64,000 bases of DNA from Maricaulis parjimensis. GTDB taxonomy: Bacteria > Pseudomonadota > Alphaproteobacteria > Caulobacterales > Maricaulaceae. The notes under the pieces were generated by a model. The model was not told where the DNA came from, did no database searches, and worked only from the letters and a program-made list of their open reading frames with translations. Positions 7,427-31,446 of this stretch are shown one piece after another. The stretch lies in the NCBI RefSeq assembly GCF_016817355.1, contig NZ_JADOTT010000008.1, positions 39,787 through 103,786 of the forward strand, given 5' to 3'. A program made the translations under genes and the position numbers. Within the stretch, counting starts at the first letter, position 1, and each line of letters starts with the position of its first letter.

Positions 7427-7577
7427 GCGGGAATCCTGTAACTGACGGGCTGGTTATAGGGGCAGGGCGGGCCGGGCCCAAGCGGCAAGCTGTCACGGCT
7501 CGCAGGATTGTCATCATTTGGCGCTCGATCTGGCGGCCGGTCGCGTTATGGTGCCGGGAAACCGAAAGGATCAGCCC

Positions 7578-8201: not shown

Positions 8202-8213
8202 CCGCGCGAGCGA

Positions 8214-10718: not shown

Positions 10719-11365
10719 GTGATGGTGAAGCGCTCCAGAGCGTCGACATCCGCTTTCATGAGCGCATCGGACGCGGCCTGGATGGTCTCCACCGGCCAGT
10801 CCCACCATTTCAGCTCCAGCAGGCGTTCGATATCCGCTTCGGGCAGGCGTTTGCGGATCGGGCGGGCCGGATTGCCACCGACAATCGTGTAGGGCTCGAC
10901 ATCGGCCGTCACGACGGATTTGGCGGCGATGATGGCGCCAGGCCCGACCGTGACGCCGGGCATGATCACGGCATCCCAGCCGATCCAGACATCATGTCCG
11001 ATCGTGATGCCGCCCTTGTTCGGCCAGGGCCCGGGATCGGGTTCGCCCCAGGCGCCGAAAATGGAGAAGGGATAGCTCGACAGGCGGTCGGCAAAATGAT
11101 TGCCGCCATTGAGCACGAAGCTGGCGCCGTGTGCGATCGAGCAGAATTTCCCGATCACGAGTTTGTCCTCGATGAAATCGAAGGCGTATTTCACATGGTC
11201 GGCAAAGCGCTCGGGATCTTCAAAGGAATGGATATAGGTGAAGTCGCCGGCCTCGATCTTGGGGTGATCGGCGACAAGCGGTTTGAGATAGGCCATGGAG
11301 GGCGCCGCCGGCAGGGGCGTGCGCATCATGGGATCAAGGGCGGGATGTGAAACAGGCGCTGTCAT
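10715..11365 (-). CDS. CatB-type xenobiotic (hexapeptide) acetyltransferase
   Basis: A 216-residue left-handed beta-helix acyltransferase. The core holds 'KLVIGKFCSIAHGASFVLNG' with the catalytic-type His in 'GGNHFADRLSSYPF'. The hexapeptide run 'ITIGHDVWIGWDAVIMPGVT' and 'VGPGAIIAAKSVVTADVEPY' follows, then 'IVGGNPARPIRKR', which is characteristic of CatB/VatD-type chloramphenicol or streptogramin acetyltransferases. Many chromosomal members have other acceptors, so drug resistance should not be assumed. It is a single gene converging with the exported protein at 10023. Confidence 0.9.
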   Translation of the reverse strand: MTAPVSHPALDPMMRTPLPAAPSMAYLKPLVADHPKIEAGDFTYIHSFEDPERFADHVKYAFDFIEDKLVIGKFCSIAHGASFVLNGGNHFADRLSSYPFSIFGAWGEPDPGPWPNKGGITIGHDVWIGWDAVIMPGVTVGPGAIIAAKSVVTADVEPYTIVGGNPARPIRKRLPEADIERLLELKWWDWPVETIQAASDALMKADVDALERFTIT

Positions 11366-12431: not shown

Positions 12432-12576
12432 GCTTCCGACTTAGCGCGATTGGTCGCATGTCTCCAGAGGTCATACGCCGTTAATTATCTATGCGTGCAA
12501 TGCGCCCGTGAATTAAGACACTGTAAAGACGAATCCTCTCGACTGGGCAGGCATATTGGTAGAGGTGCATAGAAAA

Positions 12577-13290
12577 ATGGCTGATGGGATGATCCGGACC
12601 CAGAACTTTTTCGCCTTCGATTGGCTGACCGGCAAGGTCGCCGATTGCGATCCGAACTTTCCGACCACGCTCTATGCGTGGGACGGTGAGGTGCTGGACC
12701 TGAAGGCGGTCGACACCGCGTTTTTTGGTTTTGTCCAGGAAGGTGATGCCGTGCTGACGACGTCGTCGGGCACGTTCACGCTGGGCGCGGGCATGTATTT
12801 CTCCGCCAATAATGTTCTCTCCGTCAAAGGCGGCAAGGGCATCGTGATGGCCCGCGAGAACCACCAGGCTTTCTTCATGGTCGGCGGTCCCGTCGAAGAG
12901 AAGGGCCGGCTGAAATACATCGATGGCTGCACGGACAGCCTGCTGATCTCGCCGGTCAAGGAAGGCGATCCCTGCCTGAACCTGCTCTTCTTCCCGCCGG
13001 GCATTGACCAGACCCCGCACACGCACCCCTCCGACCGGATCGGTGTGGTGTTCTCGGGCAAGGGCGAATGCGAGACACCGGAGGGCATCACCCAGCTCGA
13101 GCCGGGCGTGATGTTCCGCATCCCCTATGAGGGCAATCACAAATTCCGCACTTTCGACAGCGAGATGCGTGTCATCGCCTACCACCCGGACAGCGATTTC
13201 GGCCCGCAGGACGAAGACCACCCGATGATCAACCGGACCATGGTTGATGGTGTGTCGGCTTCGAAGATCGACGCGATCCGGACGAAATAG
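12577..13290 (+). CDS. cupin-domain protein
   Basis: A 237-residue protein with two beta-barrel halves. The second half, about residues 145-215, has the cupin metal motif 'HTHPSDRIGVVFSGKGE' and a later 'PYEGNHKFRTF' that supplies the final His. The first half (GDAVLTTSSGTFTLGAGM) looks like a degenerate cupin without ligands. The start is uncertain; I favour the ATG at 12577 with AGAGG upstream, although an ATG at 12589 is possible. Such bicupins include dioxygenases, isomerases and binding proteins. Nothing around it shows the substrate. A strong terminator follows. Confidence 0.75.
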   Translation: MADGMIRTQNFFAFDWLTGKVADCDPNFPTTLYAWDGEVLDLKAVDTAFFGFVQEGDAVLTTSSGTFTLGAGMYFSANNVLSVKGGKGIVMARENHQAFFMVGGPVEEKGRLKYIDGCTDSLLISPVKEGDPCLNLLFFPPGIDQTPHTHPSDRIGVVFSGKGECETPEGITQLEPGVMFRIPYEGNHKFRTFDSEMRVIAYHPDSDFGPQDEDHPMINRTMVDGVSASKIDAIRTK

Positions 13291-13314
13291 TTTTTGCTTC
13301 ATCGCTGAACAATC

Positions 13315-13341
13315 AGGGCGCCAATCGGCGCCCTTTTTGTT
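13315..13341 (+). terminator. rho-independent terminator of the cupin gene
   Basis: An 8-bp perfect GC-rich stem (13315-13322 with 13327-13334), loop AATC, then a run of T. Confidence 0.92.
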
Positions 13342-13368
13342 TGGCTGAATGCTTGTCGCTACACACAG

Positions 13369-13473
13369 CGTCATCCTGACGAAGGTCAGGACCCAGGTCG
13401 TAGGGCCGGGTCCAGCCAAGCTTGGCGCCATCCCGCTTTATGACCTGGGTCCCGGCATTCGCCGGGATGACGG
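13369..13473. repeat. dispersed palindromic repeat, family B, copy 1
   Basis: The left end GTCATCCTGACGAAGGTCAG leads to ACCCAGG; the right end is CCTGGGT followed by CCGGCATTCGCCGGGATGAC. The outer ends and the inner ACCCAGG/CCTGGGT pair by inversion, and each arm also makes its own small hairpin. The same element is present in the opposite orientation at 60473-60543. It sits between the cupin terminator and a GIY-YIG gene. Confidence 0.85.
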
Positions 13474-13540
13474 TGAAACGTGATGCGCGTCACATTTGGA
13501 ATGGCGTGCGCTGGCTAGGCTTTTCGGGAGGGGAGCCGGC

Positions 13541-13849
13541 ATGCCCAAGCATCCGTGTGTCTACATTCTCGCCAGCAAGCGCAATGGCACACTTTATGTC
13601 GGAGTGACTGGCGATATCGCCATACGTGTGTGGATGCACAAGCAGGGCAAGGGTTCTGCATTCACCCGCAAATATGGCGTCGACAAGCTGGTCTGGTGCG
13701 AGTTCCACGAGGATTTCGGGTTCGCCATTGCCAGAGAGAAGCAGCTCAAGAACTGGCGGCGCCTCTGGAAGTTAAACCTGATCGAAGAGCGCAATCCGGA
13801 CCGGGCAGACCTCTACGAGACCATCCAGATGTGGGCACCGCTCGACTAA
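13541..13849 (+). CDS. GIY-YIG nuclease-domain protein
   Basis: A 102-residue single-domain GIY-YIG protein. The start at 13541 follows GGGAGGGGAG and opens 'MPKHPCVYILASKRNGTLYV'; the longer frame has no ribosome site. The motifs are C-V-Y for GIY, then Y-V-G, the Arg in 'DIAIRVWMHKQG', 'TRKYGVDKLVW' and the Glu of 'REKQLKNW'. This matches the YhbQ/UPF0213 class. Such proteins cut or nick DNA in some cases, and their cellular role is poorly known. It lies directly behind a palindromic repeat and ends one base from the convergent neuB-like gene. Confidence 0.88.
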   Translation: MPKHPCVYILASKRNGTLYVGVTGDIAIRVWMHKQGKGSAFTRKYGVDKLVWCEFHEDFGFAIAREKQLKNWRRLWKLNLIEERNPDRADLYETIQMWAPLD

Positions 13850-13850: not shown

Positions 13851-14768
13851 CTATTTCCCCGCCCGGTCGTCCGCTTCCCATTGTGGGCGGAGCCAGGTTT
13901 CGCCGTCGGCGGAGGGGTGGCCGGTGGCGGTATCATAGCGGCCGCGGCGCAGATTGCGGCGGCGGTTGATTTCGCTGGCGGCGGGCTTTTTCTCACCATC
14001 ACCGAGTGCCTGTTCGAGCAGGCGCAGATCGGCGATCAGGGCGGCGAGTTCATCCATCTCCATGGCGAAGGGATGGTCCGGACCTTCCAGAGAGCGGCTG
14101 AAAGTGACGTGTTTCTCGATCACCACTGCGCCCAGGGCGGCGGCCGCGATGGGAGCGGTATGGCCCGGTGAGTGGTCGGACAGGCCGACCTTGCGACCGG
14201 TGGCCGTTTTCAGCGTCGTGATGGCGGACAGGTTGAGATCATCCCAGCTGGGCGGATAGCTGGCGGCGCAATGCAGGACGGTGATGTCGGAACAGCCGGC
14301 ATGCTTGAGCGTGGCAATGGCGTCTTCCACCTCGTCCAGATAGGACGCGCCGGTGGACAGGATGACGGGCTTGCCGGTCTGGCCCAGCTTGCTCAGAAGC
14401 GGCGCGAAAGTCATGTCGCCGGAGGCCACCTTGTAGCGCTTAACGCCGATGCGCTCCATCAGGTCGACCGCTTCGAGTGAGAAGGGCGTGGACATGAATT
14501 CCACGCCATTGTCCGTCGCGCACTGCATCAGCGGGGCGTGCCAGTTATCGGGCAGTCCGGCATTGCCGAAAGCAGCATATTTCGGGTTCTCGACCACCTG
14601 GCCGTCGGCATCGCGGATGAAGCGCGCGATCAGCCCGTCACGGGTGAGGGTCTGGAATTTGACGACATCGGCACCGGCGCGGGCCGAAGCCTCGATATAG
14701 CGCTTGGCCTCGTCCAGATCGCCGCCATGATTGGAGCCGATTTCGGCGATGATATCGATATGGGTCAT
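13851..14768 (-). CDS. NeuB/PseI-type nonulosonic acid synthase, short C-terminus
   Basis: A 305-residue synthase expected to condense phosphoenolpyruvate with a six-carbon amino sugar to a nine-carbon sialic-acid-like sugar. The TIM barrel has 'IIAEIGSNHGGDLDEA', 'GADVVKFQT', 'FMSTPFSLEAVD', 'YKVASGD', 'ILSTGAS', 'VLHCAASYP', 'GLSDHSPGH', 'VIEKHVTF' and 'GPDHPFAM', all family hallmarks. Family members are usually near 340-350 residues with a C-terminal SAF (antifreeze-like) domain that contributes an Arg to the neighbouring active site. Here only about 45 residues follow the barrel, and a full SAF domain is not visible. It is the last gene of the minus-strand glycosylation operon and abuts the cytidylyltransferase gene without a gap. 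Confidence 0.87.
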   Translation of the reverse strand: MTHIDIIAEIGSNHGGDLDEAKRYIEASARAGADVVKFQTLTRDGLIARFIRDADGQVVENPKYAAFGNAGLPDNWHAPLMQCATDNGVEFMSTPFSLEAVDLMERIGVKRYKVASGDMTFAPLLSKLGQTGKPVILSTGASYLDEVEDAIATLKHAGCSDITVLHCAASYPPSWDDLNLSAITTLKTATGRKVGLSDHSPGHTAPIAAAALGAVVIEKHVTFSRSLEGPDHPFAMEMDELAALIADLRLLEQALGDGEKKPAASEINRRRNLRRGRYDTATGHPSADGETWLRPQWEADDRAGK

Positions 14769-15497
14769 TCAGGAAGCCAGGTCGGTGATGATGGAATGGA
14801 GGACCGCGTTCTCTTCCATCAGACGGCAGATATGCAGCGTGTCGACGGGCCAGCCACGGGCCAGGAGTTCGGCATGGACCGAGCGGACGACATCGAGATC
14901 ATCGGGCGTGTCCACGGAGAGGTCGATTTCCGGATGGCGCAGCGCTTCGGGGAATTCCACGACATGGCAGCGATAGCGGTCGAGATGTTCGCGGATATGA
15001 ATGGTAACATGTTCGCGGTCGCGCACCGTTGTGGCCGGATCTTCGTCGATCTGGCGCAGGACGGCGGTCTCGACGACTTCGGCCCGCAGTCCCTTGGGCA
15101 GGTGCCCGTCGGCCGGGCGCGTGTATTCAGCGCCATGGGCGCGATGCTCGGCGACACATTTCGCGATCACATCGGGATCGCGGAAAGGGCTGTCCGAGGT
15201 GATGCGGATCAGGGTTGAGGCCAGGGTCGCATCGGCGACCAGGAGAAAGCGGCTCAGCACATTTTCTTCCGATCCGCGGAAAACGCGGATGCCCTCGGCC
15301 TTGGCCAGTTCCACCACGGCGTCGTCGTCCGGGGCCTCGGTCGTCGCGATGACCAGCTCATCCACGCCGGGAATGTCACGGAGACGGCGGCACTGATAGG
15401 CGAGCAGGGAGACATCCTCGTACAGGGCTTCCAGGATTTTGCCGGGGAGCCGGTTGGAGCCTGTGCGGGCCTGGATGACGGCAACGGTACGGGTCAA
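14769..15497 (-). CDS. SpsF/PseF-type cytidylyltransferase
   Basis: A 242-residue nucleotidyltransferase that would activate the nonulosonic acid as a CMP-sugar. The N-terminal signature 'VAVIQARTGSNRLPGKILEAL' (read in pieces) gives the Arg and Lys of the CTP-binding loop. 'VIATTEAPDDDAVVELA', 'VFRGSEENVLSRF' and 'LIRITSDSPFRDP' follow, with the metal-binding Asp in the last; 'LSVDTPDDLDVV' ends the fold. This is the SpsF (COG1861) branch. Translation starts at TTG, overlapping the ATP-grasp stop as TTGA, which implies coupling. The substrate is inferred from the adjacent neuB-like gene. Confidence 0.87.
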   Translation of the reverse strand: MTRTVAVIQARTGSNRLPGKILEALYEDVSLLAYQCRRLRDIPGVDELVIATTEAPDDDAVVELAKAEGIRVFRGSEENVLSRFLLVADATLASTLIRITSDSPFRDPDVIAKCVAEHRAHGAEYTRPADGHLPKGLRAEVVETAVLRQIDEDPATTVRDREHVTIHIREHLDRYRCHVVEFPEALRHPEIDLSVDTPDDLDVVRSVHAELLARGWPVDTLHICRLMEENAVLHSIITDLAS

Positions 15498-16543
15498 GGT
15501 CTACCCTCCGGGGTGGTCGGAATTTCAATGTCCTGCCAGGTGCGGACCATACGCTTTGCAGAATAGGGCGGAAAGGTTGACGGGATATGGCCGTCCAGAT
15601 GCTCCGACCCGGCCAGCATGCGGACCAGGAGTTCGGGCACGTTGAGCCCGGCAAGGGTCATCAGATAGCCAAAACCCCACATGCGCGGATTGATCTCCAG
15701 CAGATAGGGCGGTTCTCCCGGGGCCGGGCGTTTCACCTCGACGGCGGCGAGCCCGTGCCAGGGGCCGGAGGCTTCCAGAACGGCGAGCCCGGCCTTCATC
15801 AATTCGGGGTCATCCACCGTCTCGCCGGCGACAGCCACGCCGCCTGTGGGCGGGTTGGTCTGCAGCTTGCGGTGAAGGGTTGAAACAATGAGTTCGCCGC
15901 GGTTCCAGAGCGAGCCGATCGTGTAGACCGTCTCGGCTCCGCCGGGGATGTAGGACTGGACCACACAGGGACCGTGCACGGCGTGTGTCTCGCGCCAGGT
16001 CTCTTTCAGGGCCTCCATGTCCGCGGGATAGCTGACACCGCGGGCGCCGCGCGAGGTGCGGGGCTTGATCACGCAGGGGAAGCCGCCGGACCAGGCGTCC
16101 AGATCGGTTTCACTCTCCGGCTGGAGTGTGACGGGGCAGGGCAGGCCGCGTTCAGCGCAGCGGGCCAGCAGACGCCCTTTGTCGATGCCGAAAGCCACCA
16201 CGTCGGGATCGGCGACGGGGACACGCAGGCCGTTCTCCGTCCAGTCGCGCGCGACCGGAGCGAGGGCCGCGATTTCCGCTTCGGAACCGGGGATGATGAT
16301 GTCCAGATTGCGTTCGGCGCAGACGGCACGGACCGCGGCGCGGTAGGCCTCGGCATCGCTGGCCGATGGCAGGACGCAGGATTGTGTGCCCGGCTCGAAC
16401 ATGCCGCCAGCCAGGGCATTGATGTCGGCCGCGACCAGTTTGAGTGCCGGATCGGCCTGTTTCAGGGAGCGCAGCGTGCCCAGTCCGGGCGGAGCGCCCA
16501 CGCCGGTGACCAGAATGCCCGAGCTGAGCTGTGACAGGGTCAT
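15494..16543 (-). CDS. ATP-grasp ligase in the nonulosonate operon
   Basis: A 349-residue carbamoyl-phosphate-synthase-like ATP-grasp protein. An N-terminal Rossmann-like part 'GILVTGVGAPPGLGTLRSL' precedes the ATP-grasp core, with 'FGIDKGRLLARCAERGLPCP', 'PCVIKPRTSRGARGV', 'CVVQSYIPGG' and the metal site 'YLLEINPRMWGFG'. Family members join a carboxylate to an amine or thiol using ATP. Its ATG overlaps the sulfotransferase stop (ATGA) and its own stop overlaps the cytidylyltransferase start, so it is firmly in the operon. The likely job is tailoring the nonulosonic acid or an acyl or amino-acid substituent; the acceptor is unknown. Confidence 0.85.
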   Translation of the reverse strand: MTLSQLSSGILVTGVGAPPGLGTLRSLKQADPALKLVAADINALAGGMFEPGTQSCVLPSASDAEAYRAAVRAVCAERNLDIIIPGSEAEIAALAPVARDWTENGLRVPVADPDVVAFGIDKGRLLARCAERGLPCPVTLQPESETDLDAWSGGFPCVIKPRTSRGARGVSYPADMEALKETWRETHAVHGPCVVQSYIPGGAETVYTIGSLWNRGELIVSTLHRKLQTNPPTGGVAVAGETVDDPELMKAGLAVLEASGPWHGLAAVEVKRPAPGEPPYLLEINPRMWGFGYLMTLAGLNVPELLVRMLAGSEHLDGHIPSTFPPYSAKRMVRTWQDIEIPTTPEGRP

Positions 16544-17484
16544 GAGCGCCAAACCTCAAGAGAACGTCCGAGCAGGCCCTCCAGGCGCTCGATCTCAGGC
16601 GCGAAACGGGCCGTCAGGGCGTCACGGATATCGGCGTCCATGGGCGGAACAGTGGTTTCGCCGTCCACCATGGGCGGGTAGACGCCATCGGCGGTCGGGG
16701 CGTCGGCGTTTGTGGCGTCCCGCGGAGCGATGAATTCGGCATAGAGGTCTTCGAAGGGCTCTTTGGACCGGGCGTCCAGCACGCCTTCCAGAATGGGCAG
16801 GCGGGATCGCGGAATGCCGCCCGTATTATAGCGCTGGCGGGTTTCGGGCTCGATCCGGTCGAGGCCCAGATAGTCCTGTACCTTGGCGACAATGCCCGGT
16901 GTGTCGGCATCGAGTTCGTCCTGCAGGAGGACCAGCATGTCCGGGAAATGCTGCTTCCAGATCGCGATCCGCTCGGCGTAGCAGCTGGTATCGGCATAGA
17001 GCCACTGGAAGCCCCAATTGGCCGCCTTGCGGCGCGGCTCATCGGCGAGCGCGCTGCGGAAGGTGGCGAATTCGGCATCGCGGCGGACGTTCTGCAGATA
17101 GTGGGAATAGGTCCGCTCGACCGGATTGCGCAGGAGCGCGATGATCCGGGTCTGTGGCCCGCAATATTTCAGGGCGCGCGGGGCGGAGATGGGTGCGTAG
17201 GCATAATAGTCCGGCGAGACATCGCCGATGCGCTTCTGACCCGACCAGGTTTCGAACAGGGTCTGGTAGTCGGCCACGGTCGGGGCCGTGTCATAGTGGT
17301 AGTAGGCAGGCCAGTAGACCTCACCTTCGCCAATGCCGGAGAAGAAACGGCCTTCCTTGCGCACAGGCGAGAGGAAGATGTCCTTGTGCTGGGCGAGGTA
17401 GTGATAGAGCGAGGTCGTGCCGGATTTCGGCGCACCGATCACCAGGAAGTTCGGCCAGATATCTTGGGTCGCGTTGGAGCTCAC
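16540..17484 (-). CDS. PAPS-dependent sulfotransferase family protein
   Basis: A 314-residue sulfotransferase. The 5'-phosphosulfate loop is 'FLVIGAPKSGTTSLYHYLAQ' near residue 14. The 3'-phosphate motif is 'IIALLRNPVERTYSHYLQNV', with the Arg and Ser in place. 'EGRFFSG' and 'RIGDVSPDYY' match Sulfotransfer_1 enzymes, and the C-terminal 'RQRYNTGGIPRSRL' gives the usual loop. I prefer the GTG at 17484 (AAAGGA seven bases upstream) to an ATG at 17520 that lacks a ribosome site. Placement between pseG and the ATP-grasp gene suggests it sulfates the flagellar glycan or its precursor. Confidence 0.87.
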   Translation of the reverse strand: MSSNATQDIWPNFLVIGAPKSGTTSLYHYLAQHKDIFLSPVRKEGRFFSGIGEGEVYWPAYYHYDTAPTVADYQTLFETWSGQKRIGDVSPDYYAYAPISAPRALKYCGPQTRIIALLRNPVERTYSHYLQNVRRDAEFATFRSALADEPRRKAANWGFQWLYADTSCYAERIAIWKQHFPDMLVLLQDELDADTPGIVAKVQDYLGLDRIEPETRQRYNTGGIPRSRLPILEGVLDARSKEPFEDLYAEFIAPRDATNADAPTADGVYPPMVDGETTVPPMDADIRDALTARFAPEIERLEGLLGRSLEVWRS

Positions 17485-17580
17485 ATCCCGGTCCTTTGCG
17501 AGGGGCGTGATCCGCAACATTTCAGGCTGCGAATCAGGCCGATCATTCGCCCCCCAATCGGCCTGCTGGAAGTTAAGGTT

Positions 17581-18558
17581 TTACTGAGAAGCGCCCTGTT
17601 GTGACAGGGGAAATTCGATCAAGTGCCGGGCCAGCCGGTCGGCACCCCTGCCATCGACCAGGGTCTGGCCCCGGCGGGCCATGCGGACACGGCGCTCCGC
17701 ATCGGTTGCCAGCGCTTCCATCGTCTCGGTGACCCGGCGTTCAAAACAGGGCTTTTCCGGGTCGATCATGAGGCCCAGCCCCAGACGCTGGAACTGGCGG
17801 GCACGATCATATTGATGCGGAACAATCGGCACGCACAGGGCGGGCAGGCCCGTGGCGGCGGCCTCGTGCAGGGTGGTGCCGCCGGCGAGCACGGCCAGGT
17901 CGGCGTTCAGGAGCGCATCGTGCAAGGGCAGGAGCGTACGGCCATCCCGTGTCCCGCCCGGGCGGCGGACATTCAGTTCCAGCCCGGACAAGGCGGGGGA
18001 TTGGCGGATCGAGTTTTCGATACGGTCGACCAGATCGGTAGCCGTGCCGCCCAGGGAGACAAGGATATTGGCGGCCGGCTGAGCGATTTGTTTGGCTGGC
18101 AGGCCGGCATAGGCGTCATCCAGCAGGAGCCAGTCGGCACCGGATAATTGGGGGCGCTGGGGATCCGGATCGGTTTCGGCAAAGCCCTGGCGGACATGAA
18201 GGTCTGCGACGGCTTCGCCTGTGAAGCCGCCGATCAACACGACCGGACAGACCGTGGTCCGGATCTGCGCCACCAGATCGGCGGGCGTGTTTTTCCAGTC
18301 GCCGACGAAAAGGTCGCTGCCGGCTGCCACCAGCATGGGGGTGAGCAGGTCGGCTTCGATCTCTTCGTCGAGGATGTGGACATGGTCGTCATCGTCGAGC
18401 CAGTCGGGCAGGACAGTGGGTGTGGTGGTGAACCAGTCGATCTCGACGCCGGCCCTGATCAGGGCGCGGGCGAGGGCGCTGCAGCGCATGACATGGCCCA
18501 GACCGATATCGCCGCCGCCATCGGCGCGCAGGGCAATGCGGCGCGGCGAACCAGTCAC
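17581..18558 (-). CDS. pseG: PseG-like UDP-sugar hydrolase
   Basis: A 325-residue GT-B-type hydrolase that would remove UDP from the 2,4-diacetamido-trideoxy-hexose just before the synthase step. The N-terminus 'IALRADGGGDIGLGHVMRCS' is the PseG signature, with the catalytic-type His in GHVMRC. 'VLIGGFTG', 'ADWLLLDDAYAGL', 'ILVSLGGTATD', 'LAVLAGGTTLHEAAATGLPA' and 'HQYDRARQFQRLG' give the nucleotide-binding half. The GTG start overlaps the flmG stop (GTGA). About 96 bases separate it from the sulfotransferase and hold a 9-bp inverted repeat (17535-17543 with 17557-17565), a possible attenuator. Confidence 0.88.
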   Translation of the reverse strand: MTGSPRRIALRADGGGDIGLGHVMRCSALARALIRAGVEIDWFTTTPTVLPDWLDDDDHVHILDEEIEADLLTPMLVAAGSDLFVGDWKNTPADLVAQIRTTVCPVVLIGGFTGEAVADLHVRQGFAETDPDPQRPQLSGADWLLLDDAYAGLPAKQIAQPAANILVSLGGTATDLVDRIENSIRQSPALSGLELNVRRPGGTRDGRTLLPLHDALLNADLAVLAGGTTLHEAAATGLPALCVPIVPHQYDRARQFQRLGLGLMIDPEKPCFERRVTETMEALATDAERRVRMARRGQTLVDGRGADRLARHLIEFPLSQQGASQ

Positions 18559-20351
18559 GAGCGGGCCTTCACCTCTTGGGCCAGGGCTTCCTGGACGCGG
18601 CGCATCGTATTGTCCCAGTCCTGGAAGCCTTCACCAAAGAAGGAGCGGGTCTGGGGATACCAGTGCTGGTGATCAGAACCGAGCAGGGTCCAGGTTGAGG
18701 AGCGGGCATGGATGAACCAGACCTTGCCACCGCTGGCAGCCGCCAGGTTGGATGTTGCATTCATCGGGCCCAGGACCAGATCGCAGGCGGCAGAGAGGGC
18801 TGCAACCTTGTCGAGATCCATTTTGAGATCGATGTCGCGCGGCTGGTGGATGTCGACGCCGAAGCGCTCCTTGGCCAGCGCCAATTCCTCTTCGGCCTTG
18901 CCGTACTGAAGATTGACGAAGTCGACGCCGGGGGTTTGCAGGACGTCCTTCCAGGCATCAAAGGCGGAAAAGAATTTGGAGCGGCGAGCGTCCATTTTCA
19001 GGGATTTCCAGAGAATCCCGACCTTCAGGCCGGAACCGAAACTGGCCAGTTGATCCCGGAAGGCCTGCAGCTGGTCCGGGGCAGGCTTGAGGAAGCCTTG
19101 TCTGTCCGGGAAGGCGTTGAGGCTGGAGCGGAAGGCCCGGAGCGGGCTGGCCATGGGGGTCCAAAGGTCAGCGCTCTCGGCGCCTTTTACCGTGCGGATC
19201 TCGCGGCCTTCCACTGTGGCAGACAGGTGATTGGTTACCTGGACCTGCGGGAAGGAGCGTTTGACCAGCGGCATGAGGCGGTATTCGCAGGCGATGCACA
19301 ATTGACCGTCCGGCCCCAGGGCTTCGATCAGGTCCGGGATGATGCTCATGAAAAGGACTTCATCGCCCAAGCCCTGTTCGCCGATCAGAAGGAGTGTCTT
19401 GCCGCGGATCTCGCGGGCATCGGCACCGTCCCACATGGGAATGGGCAGGGAGAAGAGCGTCGCCTGGGCGCGATTGGGATCGAGGCGGGAGGCATTGGCT
19501 TCCCAGCCTTCCGCGATCTGCCCGGCGGCCAGAAGGACCATGGAGCGGCCATGCCGCATCGTGGCCAGTTCGGTCTCGTCAGCCGGGTCCTTGAGGGCTT
19601 CCTCATAGTGCGGCAGGGCTTTTTCAGGCTCGCCGAGGAGTTCGTAGACATTGGCCATATTGTTATGGGCACGGCCGTAATCGGGCTTCAGGCGAAGCGC
19701 TTCCAGATAAAAGGTCGAAGCTTCCTCCGGCTTGCCGCTGTCATTGATGACGGTGCCCATGGAGTTCCAAAGCTCGTAATTGTCCTGATGGGCATAAATG
19801 GCCGTGCGCAGGATCTCGATGGCTTCCTCGAATTTGGATTGGTCACGCAGCACGCCGGCCAAATTGATCTGGGCGTTGATGGAATTGGGCGCGAGCTGGC
19901 ATTCGATCCGGTAGAACTTCTCCGCCACGTCGAGCATGTCGAGCTTCCACGCGACCAGGCCGAGCTTCTGGTAGATCTCGGCATCCTGGGGATCCAGCTC
20001 CCAGGCTTTCTGGAAGAAGTCGAGTGCGCTGGAGAGGCGGCCGAGCCGGTACAGCATCAGGCCCATGACGTGATTGGTCAGCGCCAGGTCGGGCGCCAGA
20101 TTGACCGTCTTCCAGGCCAGGCGCGCCGCTTCGGAATGCTGGTTCTCGGCCGACATTTTCAGGGCACGCTTCGCCTGGGCCACGACTTTTGTGTACTGCT
20201 TGCGCTTGGCGTCAGGCAGGCGATTGAGCTGGTCGTCCAGCTTCAGGGCGCTGCGTCCCAGCGGGACCGCGTCACGCGCTTCGTTCCGGACGGTTTCGGC
20301 TTGTGCGGAGAGTTCCGCGTCCAGATCCAGCACCGGGGCGTATTGCGTCAT
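18555..20351 (-). CDS. flmG: FlmG-like TPR flagellin glycosyltransferase
   Basis: A 598-residue two-part protein. TPR repeats span about residues 60-290 (for example 'NHVMGLMLYRLGRLSSALDF', 'AEIYQKLGLVAWKLDMLDVA', 'AHNNMANVYELLGEPEKALP'). A GT-B-like domain follows from about 320: 'LLIGEQGLGDEVLFMSIIPD', 'VGILWKSL', 'LVLGPMNATSNLAAASGGKV'. This is the architecture described for Caulobacter FlmG, where the TPR part binds flagellins and the second part transfers the nonulosonic acid. The divergent neighbours are flbT and flaF. The start is the ATG at 20351; an in-frame TTG lies two codons upstream. A near-match CtrA box lies 46 bases upstream of the start. Confidence 0.85.
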   Translation of the reverse strand: MTQYAPVLDLDAELSAQAETVRNEARDAVPLGRSALKLDDQLNRLPDAKRKQYTKVVAQAKRALKMSAENQHSEAARLAWKTVNLAPDLALTNHVMGLMLYRLGRLSSALDFFQKAWELDPQDAEIYQKLGLVAWKLDMLDVAEKFYRIECQLAPNSINAQINLAGVLRDQSKFEEAIEILRTAIYAHQDNYELWNSMGTVINDSGKPEEASTFYLEALRLKPDYGRAHNNMANVYELLGEPEKALPHYEEALKDPADETELATMRHGRSMVLLAAGQIAEGWEANASRLDPNRAQATLFSLPIPMWDGADAREIRGKTLLLIGEQGLGDEVLFMSIIPDLIEALGPDGQLCIACEYRLMPLVKRSFPQVQVTNHLSATVEGREIRTVKGAESADLWTPMASPLRAFRSSLNAFPDRQGFLKPAPDQLQAFRDQLASFGSGLKVGILWKSLKMDARRSKFFSAFDAWKDVLQTPGVDFVNLQYGKAEEELALAKERFGVDIHQPRDIDLKMDLDKVAALSAACDLVLGPMNATSNLAAASGGKVWFIHARSSTWTLLGSDHQHWYPQTRSFFGEGFQDWDNTMRRVQEALAQEVKARS

Positions 20352-20412: not shown

Positions 20413-20522
20413 GTAAAAACCGGCGCAGGGTTTCGGGCGGAAACGATTTCTTCACTCAGCATTGCCAACCTGCGCGAGACTCAAAGTCGTGACCGCCGCA
20501 TTGTGCGCAACGGAGCTTGCAT

Positions 20523-20909
20523 ATGCCGCTTAAAATCTCGCTCAAACCTGGCGAGCGGTTTGTCCTCAACGGGGCCGTGATCGAAAACGGTGAACGTCGG
20601 GCGAATCTCGTTCTCAAGAACAAGGCTGCGGTTCTGCGGGAAAAGGATATCCTCCACGAAGAGGATGTCACGACGCCGGTCCGCCGCATCTATTTCCCGA
20701 TCATGATGATGTATCTGTCGGACAAGGCGGACGACAAGCTCTACGACGAATTTGTGCTCCGCATGAATGAGTTCATGGGCGTGGTCACCAATCCGGATGT
20801 GCTGACTGTCTGTGTCGCGATCAGTCGCGATGTCATGGCGGGCGAGCACTACAAGGCCCTGATGGGGTGCCGGAAACTCATGACGTATGAAGCAGAGAGA
20901 TTGGGCTGA
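20523..20909 (+). CDS. flbT: FlbT flagellin synthesis regulator
   Basis: A 128-residue FlbT family protein. The ATG at 20523 gives 'MPLKISLKPGERFVLNGAVI', the typical start. 'VLKNKAAVLREKDILHEED' and 'PVRRIYFPIMMMYL' follow, then 'HYKALMGCRKLM'. In Caulobacter, FlbT binds the 5' leader of flagellin mRNA and limits translation until the hook is finished. Its stop overlaps the flaF start (TGATG), so the two are coupled, and the flagellin genes come directly after. Confidence 0.95.
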   Translation: MPLKISLKPGERFVLNGAVIENGERRANLVLKNKAAVLREKDILHEEDVTTPVRRIYFPIMMMYLSDKADDKLYDEFVLRMNEFMGVVTNPDVLTVCVAISRDVMAGEHYKALMGCRKLMTYEAERLG

Positions 20910-21292
20910 TGTCGCTTCAAGCCTATCAGGCTGCGAGCCAACGCAGCGAAGACCCCCGGGCTACGGAATACCGCCTGTTTGCGCAGGTGACGCGGGCGCT
21001 CATGGCGTCAAAGACTTTGCCGATGGAAGATGTGCGCGGCCGGGCCGATGCCATCGACTGGAACCGGCGGATCTGGAGCAATCTGGCCGTCGATTGTGCC
21101 AGTAATGACAACAAGCTGCCGGAAGGCTTGCGGGCTGCCATCATCTCGCTGTCCATCTTCGTGTCCAAGCATGGCAGTGTCGCCATGCGTGATCCGAGTG
21201 CGATCGATGATCTGGTGGATATCAATCGCACGGTGATGCAGGGGCTGATGCCCCAGGCCGGCGCGGGAGCTGGCGGGCAGGCGGCCCTCTAG
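20909..21292 (+). CDS. flaF: FlaF flagellin secretion/assembly factor
   Basis: A 127-residue FlaF family protein with 'LQAYQAASQRSEDPRATEYR', 'IDWNRRIWSNLAVDCASNDN' and 'RAAIISLSIFVSKH', all characteristic. FlaF is needed with flagellins for their secretion and works opposite FlbT in flagellin control in Caulobacter relatives. It is translationally coupled to flbT. A terminator at 21334 separates it from the first flagellin. Confidence 0.95.
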   Translation: MSLQAYQAASQRSEDPRATEYRLFAQVTRALMASKTLPMEDVRGRADAIDWNRRIWSNLAVDCASNDNKLPEGLRAAIISLSIFVSKHGSVAMRDPSAIDDLVDINRTVMQGLMPQAGAGAGGQAAL

Positions 21293-21497: not shown

Positions 21498-22325
21498 ATG
21501 GCACTTTCTGTCAACACCAACGCTGGCGCCATGATGGCGCTGCAGAACTTGAACAAGACGAATATGGACCTGACCCAGGTGCAAAACCGTATCAATACCG
21601 GACTGGAAGTATCCGGCGCTAAGGACAATGGCGGCATTTACGCCATCGCCCAGCGCATGCGCTCCCAGGTGAACGGCTATAGTGCGGTGACCAACTCCCT
21701 GGATCTGGCCACTTCAGTCACCGACGTGTCTCTGGCCGCCGGTGAAGCGATTTCCGATCTGCTGATCGAAATGAAGGAAAAAGCCCTGGCTGCGGCTGAC
21801 ACGTCGCTCGATACGGCCTCGCGGAACGCCCTGAACGAAGACTTCAAGGCCCTGCGCGACCAGATCACGACAATCACGTCGAACGCCGAATTCAACGGAA
21901 CGAACCTCATCAATGGTTCGATCACGTCGATCTCGGCACTGGCCAATGCTGACGGCTCCAACACGATCACCATCTCCGATGCGAACCTGACGCTCGGTGG
22001 CGGTGTTGTGACGGTGGCCGCGGCGGCCTCCTTCGCTTCGGCGGGTGACGCGTCTACCCTCGTCACCACGATCGAGACTTCGCTCGATAACCTGAACGCG
22101 TCTCTGGCCAAGCTCGGTACGGCATCCAAGTCGCTGGAGGTCCACAAGTCCTTCGTGACCAAGCTGTCCGACGCGCTGGAAACGGGTATCGGCCATCTGG
22201 TCGACGCCGACATGGCGAAGGAAAGCGCACGGCTCCAGTCGCTGCAGGTCAAGCAGCAGCTGGGTGTCCAGGCCCTGTCCATCGCCAACCAGGCGCCGAG
22301 CACGATCATGTCGTTCTTCGGGTAA
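21498..22325 (+). CDS. flagellin 1
   Basis: A 275-residue flagellin. The N-terminal coiled-coil part 'SVNTNAGAMMALQNLNKTNM' and 'QNRINTGLEVSGAKDNGGIY', and the C-terminal 'SLQVKQQLGVQALSIANQAP', form the D0/D1 core. The short central domain (about 130-190) has no bulky D2/D3 insert, as is usual in Caulobacter-type filaments. It contains many Ser/Thr that could be glycosylated. It is nearly the same protein as flagellin 2, differing at scattered positions (for example Ser-Ala versus Asn-Ser near the start). It has its own sigma-54 promoter and its own terminator, so it is monocistronic. Confidence 0.97.
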   Translation: MALSVNTNAGAMMALQNLNKTNMDLTQVQNRINTGLEVSGAKDNGGIYAIAQRMRSQVNGYSAVTNSLDLATSVTDVSLAAGEAISDLLIEMKEKALAAADTSLDTASRNALNEDFKALRDQITTITSNAEFNGTNLINGSITSISALANADGSNTITISDANLTLGGGVVTVAAAASFASAGDASTLVTTIETSLDNLNASLAKLGTASKSLEVHKSFVTKLSDALETGIGHLVDADMAKESARLQSLQVKQQLGVQALSIANQAPSTIMSFFG

Positions 22326-22595: not shown

Positions 22596-22610
22596 TGGCA
22601 TTGCCCTTGC
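22596..22610 (+). promoter_or_regulatory. sigma-54 promoter of flagellin 2
   Basis: TGGCATTGCCCTTGC fits TGGCAC-N5-TTGC with one mismatch and exact GG-N10-GC spacing. The predicted start is near 22622 and the leader about 63 bases. Confidence 0.9.
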
Positions 22611-22684
22611 TGTTTATGGGTTGGGTCAGAAGACCTGGCGAGCAAAAGGCTCGTGACAACACTAGAACAGGAAAGGGCCAAGAA

Positions 22685-23509
22685 ATGGCTACGATCAACA
22701 CCAATGCTGGCGCGATGATGGCGCTGCAAAACCTCAATCAGACCAACAAAGACCTGCAGATGGTCCAGAACCGTATCAACACCGGTCTGGCCGTCTCGTC
22801 CGCTAAGGACAATGGTGGTATCTACGCGATCGCCCAGAAAATGCGTTCGGACGTCAACGGCTATGCCGCGGTCGGCAACTCGCTCGACCTGGCCCAGTCC
22901 ACGACCGACGTGGCCCTGGCTGCTGGTGAAGCCATCTCCGATCTTCTGATCGAGATGAAGGAAAAGGCCCTGGCCGCTTCCGACACCTCGCTGGACACCG
23001 CGTCCCGCTCTGCCCTGAACGAAGACTTCAAGGCCCTGCGTGACCAAATCACGACCATCGCTTCCAACGCCGAATTCAACGGCACGAACCTGATCAACGG
23101 TTCCGTGACCTCGATCTCGGCTCTGGCCAATGCTGACGGTTCCAACACGATCACCATCTCCGACGCCAACATGACGCTCGGCGGTGGCACCGTGACGGTT
23201 TCCGCGACGGCTTCGTTCGCTTCTGCGGGCGACGCGTCCACGATGGTCTCCACGATCGAAACCTCTCTGGACAACCTGAACGCTTCGCTGGCCAAGCTCG
23301 GCACGGCTTCGAAGTCTCTGGAAGTTCACAAGAGCTTCGTGGGTAAGCTGTCCGACGCCCTGGAAACGGGTATCGGCAACCTGGTCGACGCCGACCTGGC
23401 CAAGGAAAGCGCCCGCCTTCAGTCGCTGCAGGTCAAGCAGCAGCTGGGTGTGCAGGCTCTGTCCATCGCCAACTCGGCTCCGAGCACGATCCTGGGTTAC
23501 TTCCGTTAA
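22685..23509 (+). CDS. flagellin 2
   Basis: A 274-residue flagellin. The ATG at 22685 follows AGGAAAGGG and opens 'MATINTNAGAMMALQNLNQT'; the longer frame upstream runs through the promoter. The C-terminus 'SLQVKQQLGVQALSIANSAP' is the D0 helix. Codon choice is strongly biased to AAC, GAC, TCC and CTG, more than in flagellin 1, which suggests it is the most heavily expressed filament subunit. It has its own sigma-54 promoter with two upstream activator-type sites. It is followed by a hairpin and then by flaG. Confidence 0.97.
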   Translation: MATINTNAGAMMALQNLNQTNKDLQMVQNRINTGLAVSSAKDNGGIYAIAQKMRSDVNGYAAVGNSLDLAQSTTDVALAAGEAISDLLIEMKEKALAASDTSLDTASRSALNEDFKALRDQITTIASNAEFNGTNLINGSVTSISALANADGSNTITISDANMTLGGGTVTVSATASFASAGDASTMVSTIETSLDNLNASLAKLGTASKSLEVHKSFVGKLSDALETGIGNLVDADLAKESARLQSLQVKQQLGVQALSIANSAPSTILGYFR

Positions 23510-24284: not shown

Positions 24285-25118
24285 ATGACGATGAGCGTTC
24301 ACACCAATACCGGCGCAATGATTGCGCTGCAGAACCTGAACAAGACCAATGAAGAGATGCAGGGCGTCCAGAACCGCATCAATACGGGTCTCAAGATCGC
24401 GGGTGCCAAGGACAATGCCGCCATTTACGCGGTGGCCCAGGGCATGCGCTCGGACATTGGCGCTCTGGAAGCTGTCCAGACCGGCCTGAACCGCGCCACC
24501 ACGATTGGTGATGTCGCGCTGGCCGCCGGCGAAAGCATCTCGGACATGCTGATCCAGATGCGCGAGAAAGCCACGGCCGCCATGGACCCGTCGCTCGATA
24601 CCTTCTCTCGCCAGGCTTATGACGCCGACTTCAAGGCCCTGCTGGACCAGGTTGCCGGCATCCTGCAGAATGCCGAGTTCGACGGTGCGAACATCCTGGA
24701 CGGCTCCATTACGGGCGGTATCCAGTTCCTGGCCGATGCCGATGGCGTGCGCTCTGTCACGCTGAAGTCGCAGGACATGTCGATCGGTGGCGCCATCATT
24801 ACCCTGGCCGCGACCGCTTCGCTGAGCACGGTCACGCTGGCCACGGCAGCTGTTGCCGCGGTGAAGACCAGCCTGGAGAACGTCAACCAGGCGCTGGCCA
24901 ATCTTGGCTCCGACGTGAAGAAGCTGGAAGCCCATGACAGTTTCGTCGGCAAGCTGATGGACAGCCTGAACAAGGGTGTCGGTGACCTCGTCGATGCCGA
25001 CCTGGCGGTTGAAAGTGCGATGCTGCAATCCTTGCAGGTGAAGCAGCAGCTGGGTGTCCAGGCGCTGTCGATCGCCAACTCGCAGCCGCAGACCATTCTG
25101 TCCCTGTTCCAGGGCTAA
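24285..25118 (+). CDS. flagellin 3
   Basis: A 277-residue flagellin, more distant from flagellins 1 and 2 than those are from each other. The N-terminus is 'MTMSVHTNTGAMIALQNLNK' and the C-terminus 'SLQVKQQLGVQALSIANSQP'. The central part (QDMSIGGAIITLAATASLST) differs in sequence but keeps the short domain size. GGGAGA upstream supports the ATG at 24285; an ATG two codons later is possible. It has the best sigma-54 promoter of the three. As a divergent paralogue it may occupy a different zone of the filament, such as the hook-proximal part. Confidence 0.96.
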   Translation: MTMSVHTNTGAMIALQNLNKTNEEMQGVQNRINTGLKIAGAKDNAAIYAVAQGMRSDIGALEAVQTGLNRATTIGDVALAAGESISDMLIQMREKATAAMDPSLDTFSRQAYDADFKALLDQVAGILQNAEFDGANILDGSITGGIQFLADADGVRSVTLKSQDMSIGGAIITLAATASLSTVTLATAAVAAVKTSLENVNQALANLGSDVKKLEAHDSFVGKLMDSLNKGVGDLVDADLAVESAMLQSLQVKQQLGVQALSIANSQPQTILSLFQG

Positions 25119-25253: not shown

Positions 25254-26426
25254 ATGACACAGAGATTTCTCCCCTATGGGCGGCAGGCCCTGGACGAGCA
25301 GGACATCGAGGCTGTGGCCGAAGTTCTGCGCGGCGATTGGCTGACAACCGGGCCCACCGTCGATGCTTTCGAGACGGCGTTCGCGGCGGCCTGCGGGGCA
25401 GGGCATGCCATTGCCTGTTCCAACGGTACGACAGCGCTCCACCTCGCCCTGGCGGCCCTGGATGTAGGCCCTGGCGATGTCTGCATCGTGCCGGCCGTGA
25501 CCTTCATGGCGACGGCCAATGCAGCGCGCTATTGCGGTGCCGATGTGGTGTTTGCCGATGTTGATCCGGAGACGGGTCTGATGACGCCGGAAACCCTTGA
25601 TGTGGCGCTGCAGGTCGCGCGCCTGCGCGGGCCGGTCAAGGCTGTCCTGCCTGTGCACCTGGCCGGACAGTGCGAGGATGTGGCGGCCATGGCCAGCCTG
25701 GCTCATGCCGCCGGAGCCGTCCTGGTGGAGGATGCCTGCCATGCCGTGGGGACACGCCATGAGGGCGAACCGGTTGGCGCCTGCCGGCACGCGGTTTCCG
25801 CCTGTTTCTCCTTTCACCCGGTCAAGACGATTGCGGCCGGCGAGGGCGGGGCGATCACGACGAATGATGCGGACATGGCCGAGCGCCTGCGCCGTCTGCG
25901 CAGCCATGGGATCGAACGTGATCCGGACCGGATGCAGCGTCAGGAAGGTGAGCCCTGGTGGCATGAAATGGTCGAACTGGGCTGGAATTACCGGCTAAGC
26001 GATATCCAGGCCGCGCTGGCCCTGTCACAGCTCAAGCGGCTGGATCATTTTGCGGCCCGCCGGCAGGAGCTGGCCGGGCTGTATGATACGGCCTTCGAGG
26101 CGATGGCGCCCCGGGTCCAGCCCTTGGCGCGGACGCCGGATTGTGAGCCCTGCCTGCACCTTTATCCGGTGCGGATCGATTTTGACGCAGCGGGCAAGGA
26201 CCGGACCGAGGTGATGGAGGCCCTGCGTGCGCAGGGCATTGGCAGCCAGGTTCACTACATCCCTGTGCCGGATCAGCCCTATTATCTGGACCTCTATGGC
26301 CGTCAGGAGCTCCCGGGGGCGCAGCGCTATTACGCGCGTACCCTGTCCTTGCCGCTGTTCGTGGGCATGGAGGATGGCGATCCCCTGAGGGTAGCGGACG
26401 CTTTGAAGGCCGCTCTGGGCGGCTAG
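25254..26426 (+). CDS. pseC: PseC-like UDP-sugar aminotransferase
   Basis: A 390-residue PLP-dependent aminotransferase of the DegT family, expected to add the 4-amino group after PseB. Motifs are 'LPYGRQALDEQDIEAV', 'IACSNGTTALHLALAALDVG', 'VLVEDACHAVG', and the PLP lysine near residue 191 in 'SFHPVKTIAAGEGGAITTND'. 'WNYRLSDIQAALALSQL' and 'QVHYIPVPDQPYY' complete the PseC-type pattern. It lies behind flagellin 3 and converges with pseB, so two consecutive pathway enzymes are encoded tail to tail with a four-base CTAG overlap. Confidence 0.93.
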   Translation: MTQRFLPYGRQALDEQDIEAVAEVLRGDWLTTGPTVDAFETAFAAACGAGHAIACSNGTTALHLALAALDVGPGDVCIVPAVTFMATANAARYCGADVVFADVDPETGLMTPETLDVALQVARLRGPVKAVLPVHLAGQCEDVAAMASLAHAAGAVLVEDACHAVGTRHEGEPVGACRHAVSACFSFHPVKTIAAGEGGAITTNDADMAERLRRLRSHGIERDPDRMQRQEGEPWWHEMVELGWNYRLSDIQAALALSQLKRLDHFAARRQELAGLYDTAFEAMAPRVQPLARTPDCEPCLHLYPVRIDFDAAGKDRTEVMEALRAQGIGSQVHYIPVPDQPYYLDLYGRQELPGAQRYYARTLSLPLFVGMEDGDPLRVADALKAALGG

Positions 26427-27496
26427 GCTGCGGCGGCTTCGCCGATCAGGGCGCGCAGGGCCTTGCCGTCGAGCTGTTCCGGATTGGTGTTGGAGGCGTA
26501 CTGGAAACCGTCAGGCACCAGCTTGCCGCCGGTGGCCAGATAGCGCGCCATGATCTTGGCCGAGTGGGCCGGCAGGATGGCATAGCGGTCGGCCAGTTCC
26601 ACCGTGGTGCGGCTGTCGTCCTCGGGGACCATGATTTCGTGCAGTTTCTCGCCCGGGCGGATGCCGACAATCTTGTGCGGCAGGTGCGGGGCCATGGTGC
26701 GGGCCAGTTCGGCCGTGGACATGGAGGGAATCTTCGGCACGAAGATCTCACCGCCGCGCGCCATGGCGAGGCTGGAGAGGACGAAATTGACGCCCTGGTC
26801 GAGCGTGATCCAGAAGCGTGTCATGCGCGGATCGGTGATCGGCAGCTCCTTGGCACCATCATCGATCAGCTTGCGGAAATAGGGGATGACCGAGCCGCGT
26901 GAGCCCACGACATTGCCATAGCGCACGACGGAGAAAACCGGCCCGCCTTCACCGCCCATATGCTGGGCCGCGGTGAATATTTTATCCGCCGCCAGTTTGG
27001 ACGCGCCGTAGAGATTGATCGGGTTGGCGGCCTTGTCCGTGGACAGGGCGCAGACATGGCTGACCCCGCGCTTGATCGCCGCGCGGACCACATTCTCGGC
27101 ACCCATGACATTGGTCTTGATGCATTCAAACGGGTTGTATTCGGCGATCGGAACATGCTTCAGCGCGGCCGCGTGGATCACCACATCGACATCGCGCATG
27201 GCCTGGTCGAGCCGGGCCTCGTCGCGCACATCGCCAATGAAATAGCGCAGGAAAGGATAATCGCTCGGCGAAAAATCCTGAGCCATTTCATACTGTTTCA
27301 GCTCATCACGCGAGAAGATGATGAGTTTCTTCGGCTTGAATTCCCGGCAAATCGTTTCGGTGAATTTGTGGCCGAAGGATCCGGTGCCGCCCGTCACGAG
27401 GATGGTCTTGCCGTCGAGCGGCATGCGCGGCTCGAGAAAATCACGGCTCGGGATCATGTCCTCGAAGGGGTTGTCGGGCGATGTCTTGTCGGACAT
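26423..27496 (-). CDS. pseB: PseB-like UDP-GlcNAc 4,6-dehydratase (inverting)
   Basis: A 357-residue short-chain dehydrogenase that starts the pseudaminic-type pathway from UDP-GlcNAc. The NAD(P) loop is 'ILVTGGTGSFGHKFTETI' near residue 31. The catalytic block 'STDKAANPINLYGASKLAAD' contains the Asp-Lys pair and the YxxxK motif of the FlaA1/PseB class. 'VRYGNVVGSRGSVIPYF' and 'RMTRFWITLDQGVNFV' are typical of this group. It is transcribed toward pseC and away from the FlaEY-like gene. Confidence 0.94.
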   Translation of the reverse strand: MSDKTSPDNPFEDMIPSRDFLEPRMPLDGKTILVTGGTGSFGHKFTETICREFKPKKLIIFSRDELKQYEMAQDFSPSDYPFLRYFIGDVRDEARLDQAMRDVDVVIHAAALKHVPIAEYNPFECIKTNVMGAENVVRAAIKRGVSHVCALSTDKAANPINLYGASKLAADKIFTAAQHMGGEGGPVFSVVRYGNVVGSRGSVIPYFRKLIDDGAKELPITDPRMTRFWITLDQGVNFVLSSLAMARGGEIFVPKIPSMSTAELARTMAPHLPHKIVGIRPGEKLHEIMVPEDDSRTTVELADRYAILPAHSAKIMARYLATGGKLVPDGFQYASNTNPEQLDGKALRALIGEAAAA

Positions 27497-31438: not shown

Positions 31439-31446
31439 GAGCAGGC

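Follow-up and report, generated by a model that had tools for sequence, protein, structure and literature searches.

An ATP-grasp ligase and a sulfotransferase in the flagellin nonulosonate operon of Maricaulis parjimensis: a candidate pathway for a new, probably sulfated, flagellar sugar

Among flagellin nonulosonates, forms bearing acetyl, acetamidino and similar groups are known. What would a sulfotransferase (ST) and an ATP-grasp ligase add to such a sugar? Both genes lie among nonulosonate genes beside the flagellins of Maricaulis parjimensis, in a 64-kb stretch of DNA (the window) on contig C16 of the 3.35-Mb genome, which is 99.98% complete. We propose as a tentative answer, held at slightly under even confidence, a flagellin nonulosonate pathway in which N-acetylation would be replaced by ATP-grasp acylation, with sulfation by ST and transfer by the glycosyltransferase FlmG. 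Taken separately, ST and the ligase very probably both belong to the flagellin sugar pathway, the flagellin glycan is probably sulfated, and the ligase, with a slightly lower probability, takes the place of the N-acetylating enzyme PseH; these three estimates stand or fall largely together. The genes and their order, the co-occurrence of ST and ligase, the lack of a PseH above cut-off, the short NeuB and the FlmG loop were read directly from the sequence.

The operon and its distribution

Six genes on the minus strand run, 5' to 3', in the order flmG, pseG-like gene, ST, ATP-grasp, spsF-like gene and neuB (Table 1). The operon is divergent from flbT, flaF, three flagellin genes and then pseC, and pseB faces pseC. 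An earlier note on this DNA had placed ST and ATP-grasp between pseG and the cytidylyltransferase gene, and the six genes were found where stated. Its statement that both inserted genes are joined by overlapping start and stop codons held for ST/ATP-grasp (ATGA) and ATP-grasp/SpsF (TTGA) but not for pseG/ST, where 60 bases separate the pseG-like stop from the ST ATG. The four remaining junctions leave no gap, FlmG and PseG sharing GTGA and SpsF and NeuB abutting.

PseB and PseC scored above the curated cut-offs of their equivalog models. The 'pseG' label was weakened to PseG-like, as the protein keeps the G-L-G-H motif and stays under the TIGR03590 cut-off of 153.55 bits. This PseG-like protein changed fastest of the six, with 37-50% identity in ten Maricaulis versus 56-83% for the other five. 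The SpsF-like protein did not reach the PseF equivalog (19.6 bits versus a cut-off of 205.7); FlmC of Caulobacter crescentus is likewise described as without homology to PseF (PMC7591256).

We compared the two inserted genes across 200 genomes of the order, own genome included, and seven further genomes of the genus. ATP-grasp matches at E 1e-10 occurred in 39 of the 200 genomes, 13 of them at 53% identity or more, with the other matches listed at 33% or less. ST matches at E 1e-15 occurred in 29, 13 of them at 52% or more (50% in the ST alignment), with the other matches listed at 37% or less. The two orthologue sets were identical, comprising 12 Maricaulis (own included) and one Oceanicaulis (G063). 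Across the whole genus 15 of 19 genomes carried both orthologues and four carried neither: the ST orthologue scored above 550 bits in 15, with weaker sulfotransferase matches in two and none in two, and ATP-grasp was found in the same 15 (12 in the 200-genome sample and three of the seven further genomes). No ST orthologue was seen without ATP-grasp in the 200 + 7 genomes. The four Maricaulis genomes without the pair (G201-G204) are 89-94% complete assemblies.

The same gene order beside flbT, flaF, the flagellins and pseC was found in 13 of 13 loci (own locus read over the window, the 12 others over 15-19.5 kb each). It was contiguous in 12; in G054, flmG is separated from the pseG-like gene by a second sugar set. 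Recurrence of the order in 12 other genomes showed that the arrangement is not due to chance. The earlier assignment of both genes to the flagellin nonulosonate pathway is well supported by the synteny with flagellins and flmG, the strict co-occurrence and the shared junctions. Below, the set with ST and ATP-grasp is called the cassette.

A scan with two ATP-grasp peptide patterns over one genome per species (84,980 species) returned 71 loci. Thirteen were at 53-91% identity (Maricaulis 11, Alphaproteobacteria 1, Oceanicaulis 1), the ligase of this genome being 91% identical to a M. alexandrii protein, and ST adjoined in all 13; several of these loci are on the same contigs as the sampled genomes and are therefore not independent. 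Maricaulis maris DSM 4734 also has the cassette (locus L175). The other 58 relatives (25-43% over the matched pieces), mostly haloarchaeal, showed no ST or PseG-like match, and a functional link to the haloarchaeal genes was rejected. That check used window proteins as tblastn queries at E 1e-5 over at most 10 kb on each side, some stretches being shorter, and distant NeuB or ST could escape it. Among these 58 stretches NeuB was found in one (L240) and PseB- or PseC-like matches in five (L208, L217, L224, L230 and L232). In L240, from a gammaproteobacterial metagenome-assembled genome, an ATP-grasp fragment stands directly before neuB (7553-9208).

Table 1. Features of the flagellin sugar locus; coordinates are positions in the 64-kb window.
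Feature	Position	Strand	Basis
flmG-like flagellin O-glycosyltransferase	18555..20351	-	N-terminal half tetratricopeptide repeat (TPR families), C-terminal half GT-B (GT9-like; AlphaFold2 + fold search)
IHAR loop of FlmG, proposed donor-reading loop	18702..18713	-	residues 547-550 from ATG 20351
pseG-like UDP-sugar hydrolase	17581..18558	-	TIGR03590 74.2 bits, under cut-off; GLGHVMRC motif
ST, heparan-sulfate type	16540..17520	-	PF13469/PF00685
ATP-grasp ligase, PRK12767/ATP-grasp_3 type	15494..16543	-	PF02655/PF15632 above cut-off; start taken at ATG (mechanical open reading frame opens at TTG at 16552)
SpsF-like CMP-sugar synthetase (cytidylyltransferase)	14769..15497	-	PF02348 87.1 bits
NeuB-type nonulosonate synthase, 305 aa	13851..14768	-	no antifreeze-like (SAF) match
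flbT	20517..20909	+	PF07378
flaF	20909..21292	+	PF07309
flagellin gene 1	21498..22325	+	PF00669/PF00700
flagellin gene 2	22601..23509	+	PF00669/PF00700
flagellin gene 3	24285..25118	+	PF00669/PF00700
pseC aminotransferase	25254..26426	+	TIGR03588 488.6 bits, cut-off 423.5
pseB dehydratase	26423..27496	-	TIGR03589 500.6 bits, cut-off 407.75

The acyl-transfer step and the short NeuB

In the pseudaminate pathway the third step, by PseH between PseC and PseG, is an N-acetylation (PMC7591256). No PseH above cut-off was found in the whole genome (TIGR03585, best 26.3 bits versus 93.1). In the sample, 14 other genomes of the family have PseB (E 1e-90) but not the cassette; their pse loci were examined, and 11 of them carried one of five other acyl-transfer solutions close to neuB. 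The slot was filled by PseH in G044 and G078, by a GNAT enzyme in G128 (PF13302), G004 and G014 (63-64% relatives; 26-27% to PseH), by a formyltransferase in G039, by a NeuD-like hexapeptide enzyme with WbqC in G009, G143, G034 and G123, and by a different ATP-grasp with a methyltransferase in G178. The remaining three (G133, G168 and G019) showed no neuB in the stretch read near pseB, and G019 had one weak (30%) formyltransferase-like match. None of the relatives' acyl-transfer enzymes was found in the 10 of 10 cassette loci without a second set, in the stretches read; the queries came from the relatives' loci, and an unrelated acyltransferase elsewhere would escape them.

A second set, in which NeuB is longer, was present in three Maricaulis genomes: G054 (PseH, same region), G138 (PseH, other contig) and G083 (formyltransferase). 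Since these genomes hold the cassette plus a separate PseH or formyltransferase set, the cassette is no degraded form of a PseH set. In the Maricaulis locus L051 (6791-15161) a conventional set (SpsF, PseG, PseH and longer NeuB) stands beside the ST/ATP-grasp set with one flmG, and in that genome a single PseB/PseC supply may feed two sugars. The G178 ATP-grasp (L253 4253-5485, contig C34) has a weak L-amino-acid-ligase C-domain match, lies with its methyltransferase between moxR and flmG, and adjoins a longer neuB and a pseG-like gene. It is barely similar to the Maricaulis protein (E 0.009), which suggests that ATP-grasp entered the acyl slot twice. The relatives' loci L248 (5029-5658) and L156 (5805-6401) have a formyltransferase (PF00551) between pseG and neuB, which predicts an N-formyl nonulosonate there.

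A Vat/CatB-like hexapeptide acetyltransferase in the window (10715-11365; NCBIfam models shown all under cut-off) was considered as a hidden PseH and rejected. Four cassette loci long enough to include the VWA gene (L179, L180, L182 and L183) lack this acetyltransferase between VWA and moxR, so it is not a constant part.

No NeuB-family gene besides that of the window was found in the genome, and the window NeuB did not reach the PseI equivalog (TIGR03586, 247.8 bits versus a cut-off of 340.25). Cassette NeuBs had 297-306 residues in the 12 other genomes versus 332-364, counted from the start of the aligned region, in six conventional NeuBs. The Pfam antifreeze-like (SAF) domain scored 48.7 bits in the conventional NeuB of G054 and had no match in the window NeuB; Pfam was run on these two proteins, and the other NeuBs were judged by length. 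A separate SAF gene was not found after neuB, where, of the three open frames scanned in 12481-13849, one matched a cupin, one a GIY-YIG and one nothing.

E9, H220 and R294 of the window NeuB aligned with E26, H241 and R318 of the conventional G054 NeuB (catalytic Glu, metal His and SAF Arg). These G054 residues are, by numbering and not by alignment, at a constant offset of 4 from E30, H245 and R322 of the C. crescentus enzyme, in which E30A and R322A were inactive, H245A was partly active and R322 lies in the antifreeze-like domain (PMC7591256). R294 was kept in 15 of 15 aligned NeuBs, and the window chain ends 11 residues beyond it. In 13 of 13 cassette genomes NeuB stops just after this conserved substrate-binding Arg and is too short for the antifreeze-like domain, which in Neisseria meningitidis reaches into the partner's active site (PMC7591256). 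The domain is thus reduced here to a tail that keeps the Arg, and the change may leave a wider NeuB pocket for a larger N-substituent. A NeuB that ends right after its substrate Arg also offers a test of the purpose of the antifreeze-like domain.

The ligase, the sulfotransferase and FlmG

The ATP-grasp model (mean confidence, pLDDT, 87.5) matched L-amino-acid ligases, a carbamoyl phosphate synthase (CPSase)-like protein, biotin carboxylases and purine ligases. The best VIA match, 2pn1, had Z 29.5 over 288 residues and a root-mean-square deviation (rmsd) of 2.5. The top Foldseek match was an L-amino-acid ligase, as were two of the four PDB sequences matched by profile, the second match among them. 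The L-amino-acid ligases (3vot, 4wd3 RizA and 3vmm BacD), enzymes that join two amino acids, are only 14-20% identical and alike in fold only; the acceptor expected here is a sugar amine. K122, K160, E269, E283, N285 and R287 were invariant in the 13 orthologues, giving the two Lys and the E...E.N pattern that we take to be the nucleotide and metal sites of the fold. An amide-linked substituent, one of the two options in the earlier note, is compatible with this fold and with the empty acyl-transferase slot.

The closest solved relative of ST was 3rnl (157.5 bits), a bacterial chain named just 'Sulfotransferase'. By profile ST also matched 3-O-sulfotransferase-3 (E 3e-16) and N-deacetylase/N-sulfotransferase (E 1e-11), heparan sulfate enzymes of the same superfamily with the same Lys, Glu, Arg and Ser; the enzyme here is bacterial and its acceptor is only proposed. 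K32, E56, R131 and S139, aligned to 3-O-sulfotransferase-3, were invariant in 13 of 13 orthologues and are presumably the motif and catalytic residues. The motifs of sulfotransferases using 3'-phosphoadenosine 5'-phosphosulfate (PAPS) were present (5'-PSB KxGTTSL, 3'-PB RxPxxRxxSxY and catalytic Glu), with the Pro before the Lys not invariant, and the genome has an APS kinase for PAPS supply. The sulfated sugar of the earlier note, its other option, is compatible with these features. Four other sulfotransferase matches occur in the genome, two close together (C14 134376-135786) and the others at C10 101015-101650 and C1 352084-352788; one of the four lies within a 697-residue open frame and one stands alone.

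FlmG has an N-terminal TPR half, a C-terminal GT-B half, about 600 aa and a place beside flagellar genes. The AlphaFold2 model of the glycosyltransferase (GT) half (pLDDT 86.6) had GT9 heptosyltransferases as its best PDB folds, with 3tov on top (Z 16.9, rmsd 3.8 over 268 residues), which fits the expected GT-B; the fold search alone gave matches, as no PDB sequence matched this domain at E 0.01. The published description of C. crescentus FlmG (596 aa, TPR + GT-B; PMC7591256) gives the same size and layout. By this likeness we propose that FlmG moves the nonulosonic acid onto flagellin in Maricaulis.

A motif, [IV]H[AS]R, was found in a C-terminal FlmG loop in 16 of 16 cassette genomes, 15 of them Maricaulis, and in none of 11 others; G004, G165 and G110 were left out of the count, as the stretch taken held no FlmG. 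The Oceanicaulis genome G063 provides a natural contrast, since its congeners G044 and G078 carry the PseH set. Against these two, G063 was 87-96% identical in pseB, flbT, flaF and the flagellins, 80-82% in pseC and 45-56% in one open frame of unassigned family. Its FlmG was 83-88% identical to theirs in the TPR half and 77-78% in the GT half, versus 51-56% to five Maricaulis in the GT half. Wholesale transfer of flmG with the cassette was rejected on these identities. At sites where the two congeners agree, G063 FlmG had 32 changes in the last 80 residues versus 47 in the first 520 (Fisher p 3e-11 over the 80 and 520 residues, sites treated as independent), and [IV]H[AS]R stands in this rewritten stretch.

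The proposed pathway and its rivals

From these features we infer every substrate, the order of the steps and the sulfation itself. PseB and PseC would make UDP-4-amino-4,6-dideoxy-L-AltNAc. The ATP-grasp ligase, replacing PseH, would form an acyl phosphate from a carboxylic acid (most likely an amino or hydroxy acid) and link the acyl group to the 4-amino group as an amide. The PseG-like hydrolase would then strip UDP, the short NeuB would condense the sugar with phosphoenolpyruvate, and the SpsF-like enzyme would form the CMP-sugar. ST would add sulfate from PAPS in the cytoplasm before FlmG transfer, either to a hydroxyl of the ring or to the newly added acyl group. FlmG, with its invariant His and Arg in the C-terminal loop, would glycosylate the flagellins before export. 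Three features that the earlier reader did not have support the unusual sugar supposed in the earlier note: no PseH above cut-off, a NeuB cut short and an altered FlmG loop. The sugar is predicted to be a new one.

A further and doubtful extension is that the sugar is a sulfated nonulosonate with an amide made by ATP-grasp, that [IV]H[AS]R contacts its anionic substituent, and that the acyl enzyme is exchanged as a unit (PseH, formyltransferase, NeuD+WbqC, GNAT and two kinds of ATP-grasp) with the FlmG loop rewritten alongside it. The loop would then serve both to predict flagellar sugars and to re-target them. The census turns donor recognition by a soluble flagellin glycosyltransferase into a one-loop test, with G063 versus G044/G078 as the natural pair. 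A FlmG-type transferase has reportedly been re-targeted between pseudaminic and legionaminic acid in a recent paper, which could already describe donor-specificity residues.

Two published systems frame the proposal. The C. crescentus Flm pathway (FlmA-B-H-D-NeuB-C/FlmG; PMC7591256), which is the frame, shares the PseB/PseC start, the PseG-like and NeuB-type steps, a cytidylyltransferase unlike PseF, a TPR + GT-B FlmG, the flagellin target and the cytoplasmic route. Maricaulis differs in having no PseH/FlmH above cut-off, an inserted ATP-grasp and ST, a NeuB without the antifreeze-like domain, and its genes in one operon beside the flagellins. The nearest ATP-grasp case found is sfmABCDE of Shewanella oneidensis (PMC3765264), which shares a short NeuB-domain protein (SfmA, 290 aa), an ATP-grasp (SfmE), PseB/PseC and no clear PseH, and which suggests that short NeuB and ATP-grasp go together. 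As described there, the five genes include a thiamine pyrophosphate enzyme, a reductase and a methyltransferase, with no sulfotransferase and no clear PseG; SfmE (412 aa, ATP-grasp_4) was set beside the Maricaulis ligase by description only. The Shewanella flagellin carries a mono-N-acetyl nonulosonate (274 Da) and a further 236-264 Da moiety (PMC3765264).

Several points weigh against the proposal. The added Shewanella mass was assigned C9-C11 formulae without nitrogen (PMC3765264), a warning that the substituent there is not an amino acid, and deletion of the Shewanella ATP-grasp gene, unlike that of the other four, left swimming in liquid culture (PMC3765264). In C. crescentus even the combined loss of flmH (its PseH) and two paralogues failed to reproduce the phenotype of neuB, flmA, flmB or flmG mutants, and the authors attribute this to redundancy or promiscuity (PMC7591256); a missing PseH is therefore no proof of missing N-acetylation, and generic GNAT genes (weak matches) are present in this genome. 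ATP-grasp enzymes do many reactions, as the carboxylases, CPSase and purine ligases in the fold search illustrate, and the sequence of ST does not reveal its acceptor. Since the 15 Maricaulis genomes form a single clade, the co-occurrence represents few independent events. The FlmG contrast is a single switch, and apart from the H and R the G063 changes are not towards Maricaulis: of the 55 sites changed over residues 291-600, eight agree with the Maricaulis consensus in G063 and eight agree with it in the congeners. Among the 11 non-cassette genomes the loop varies within acyl types (two NeuD+WbqC pairs differ, as do G014 and G128), and it is therefore no clean code for acyl type.

The redundancy of PseH in C. 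crescentus, the weak GNAT matches and the swimming Shewanella mutant would all suit a different scheme, in which the core sugar is ordinary Pse5Ac7Ac made through a generic GNAT while ATP-grasp and ST add late decorations such as a C1-carboxyl amide and a sulfate. We consider this rather unlikely, as 11 of 14 relatives' clusters carry another acyl-transfer enzyme and the 10 cassette-only clusters carry none of those; moreover NeuB is changed at its substrate-touching domain, which late decoration would not need. That ST sulfates something else, a surface polysaccharide or protein tyrosine, and merely shares the operon appears improbable. The four other sulfotransferase matches make other sulfated products likely, and ST itself does not disclose its acceptor, but it shares a stop/start with ATP-grasp, keeps its place in all 13 loci and never appeared apart from the ligase in the genomes compared. 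The ligase could also place a carbamate or carbamoyl group on the amino sugar by CPSase or biotin-carboxylase chemistry instead of an acyl amide. Its best NCBIfam models, below their cut-offs, are named 'carbamoyl phosphate synthase-like', the annotation of 2pn1 is CPSase large subunit, and the next matches in that search are biotin carboxylases. We regard this as highly improbable, the name being by homology only and L-amino-acid ligases accounting for the top Foldseek match and half of the PDB sequence matches.

A sulfated nonulosonate, as preferred here, would give the filament of a marine swimmer a permanent negative charge, which could alter its surface chemistry and recognition. The sulfonated peptidylamido-glycans of Clostridioides difficile type B flagellin (PMC5207245) share a sulfur-bearing acidic group on a flagellin glycan and, in the part available, are not described as nonulosonates. 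In open PubMed Central literature no paper was found joining pseudaminic acid, sulfotransferase and flagella; among the papers listed there was none on a sulfated flagellin nonulosonate, judged by titles and abstract starts, and none on a Maricaulis flagellin glycan, judged by titles. Further along the window, an open frame at 29304-30395 without a Pfam or NCBIfam match adjoins a methyltransferase (30476-31498) and has counterparts (28-51% identity) similarly placed in the relatives' pse loci.

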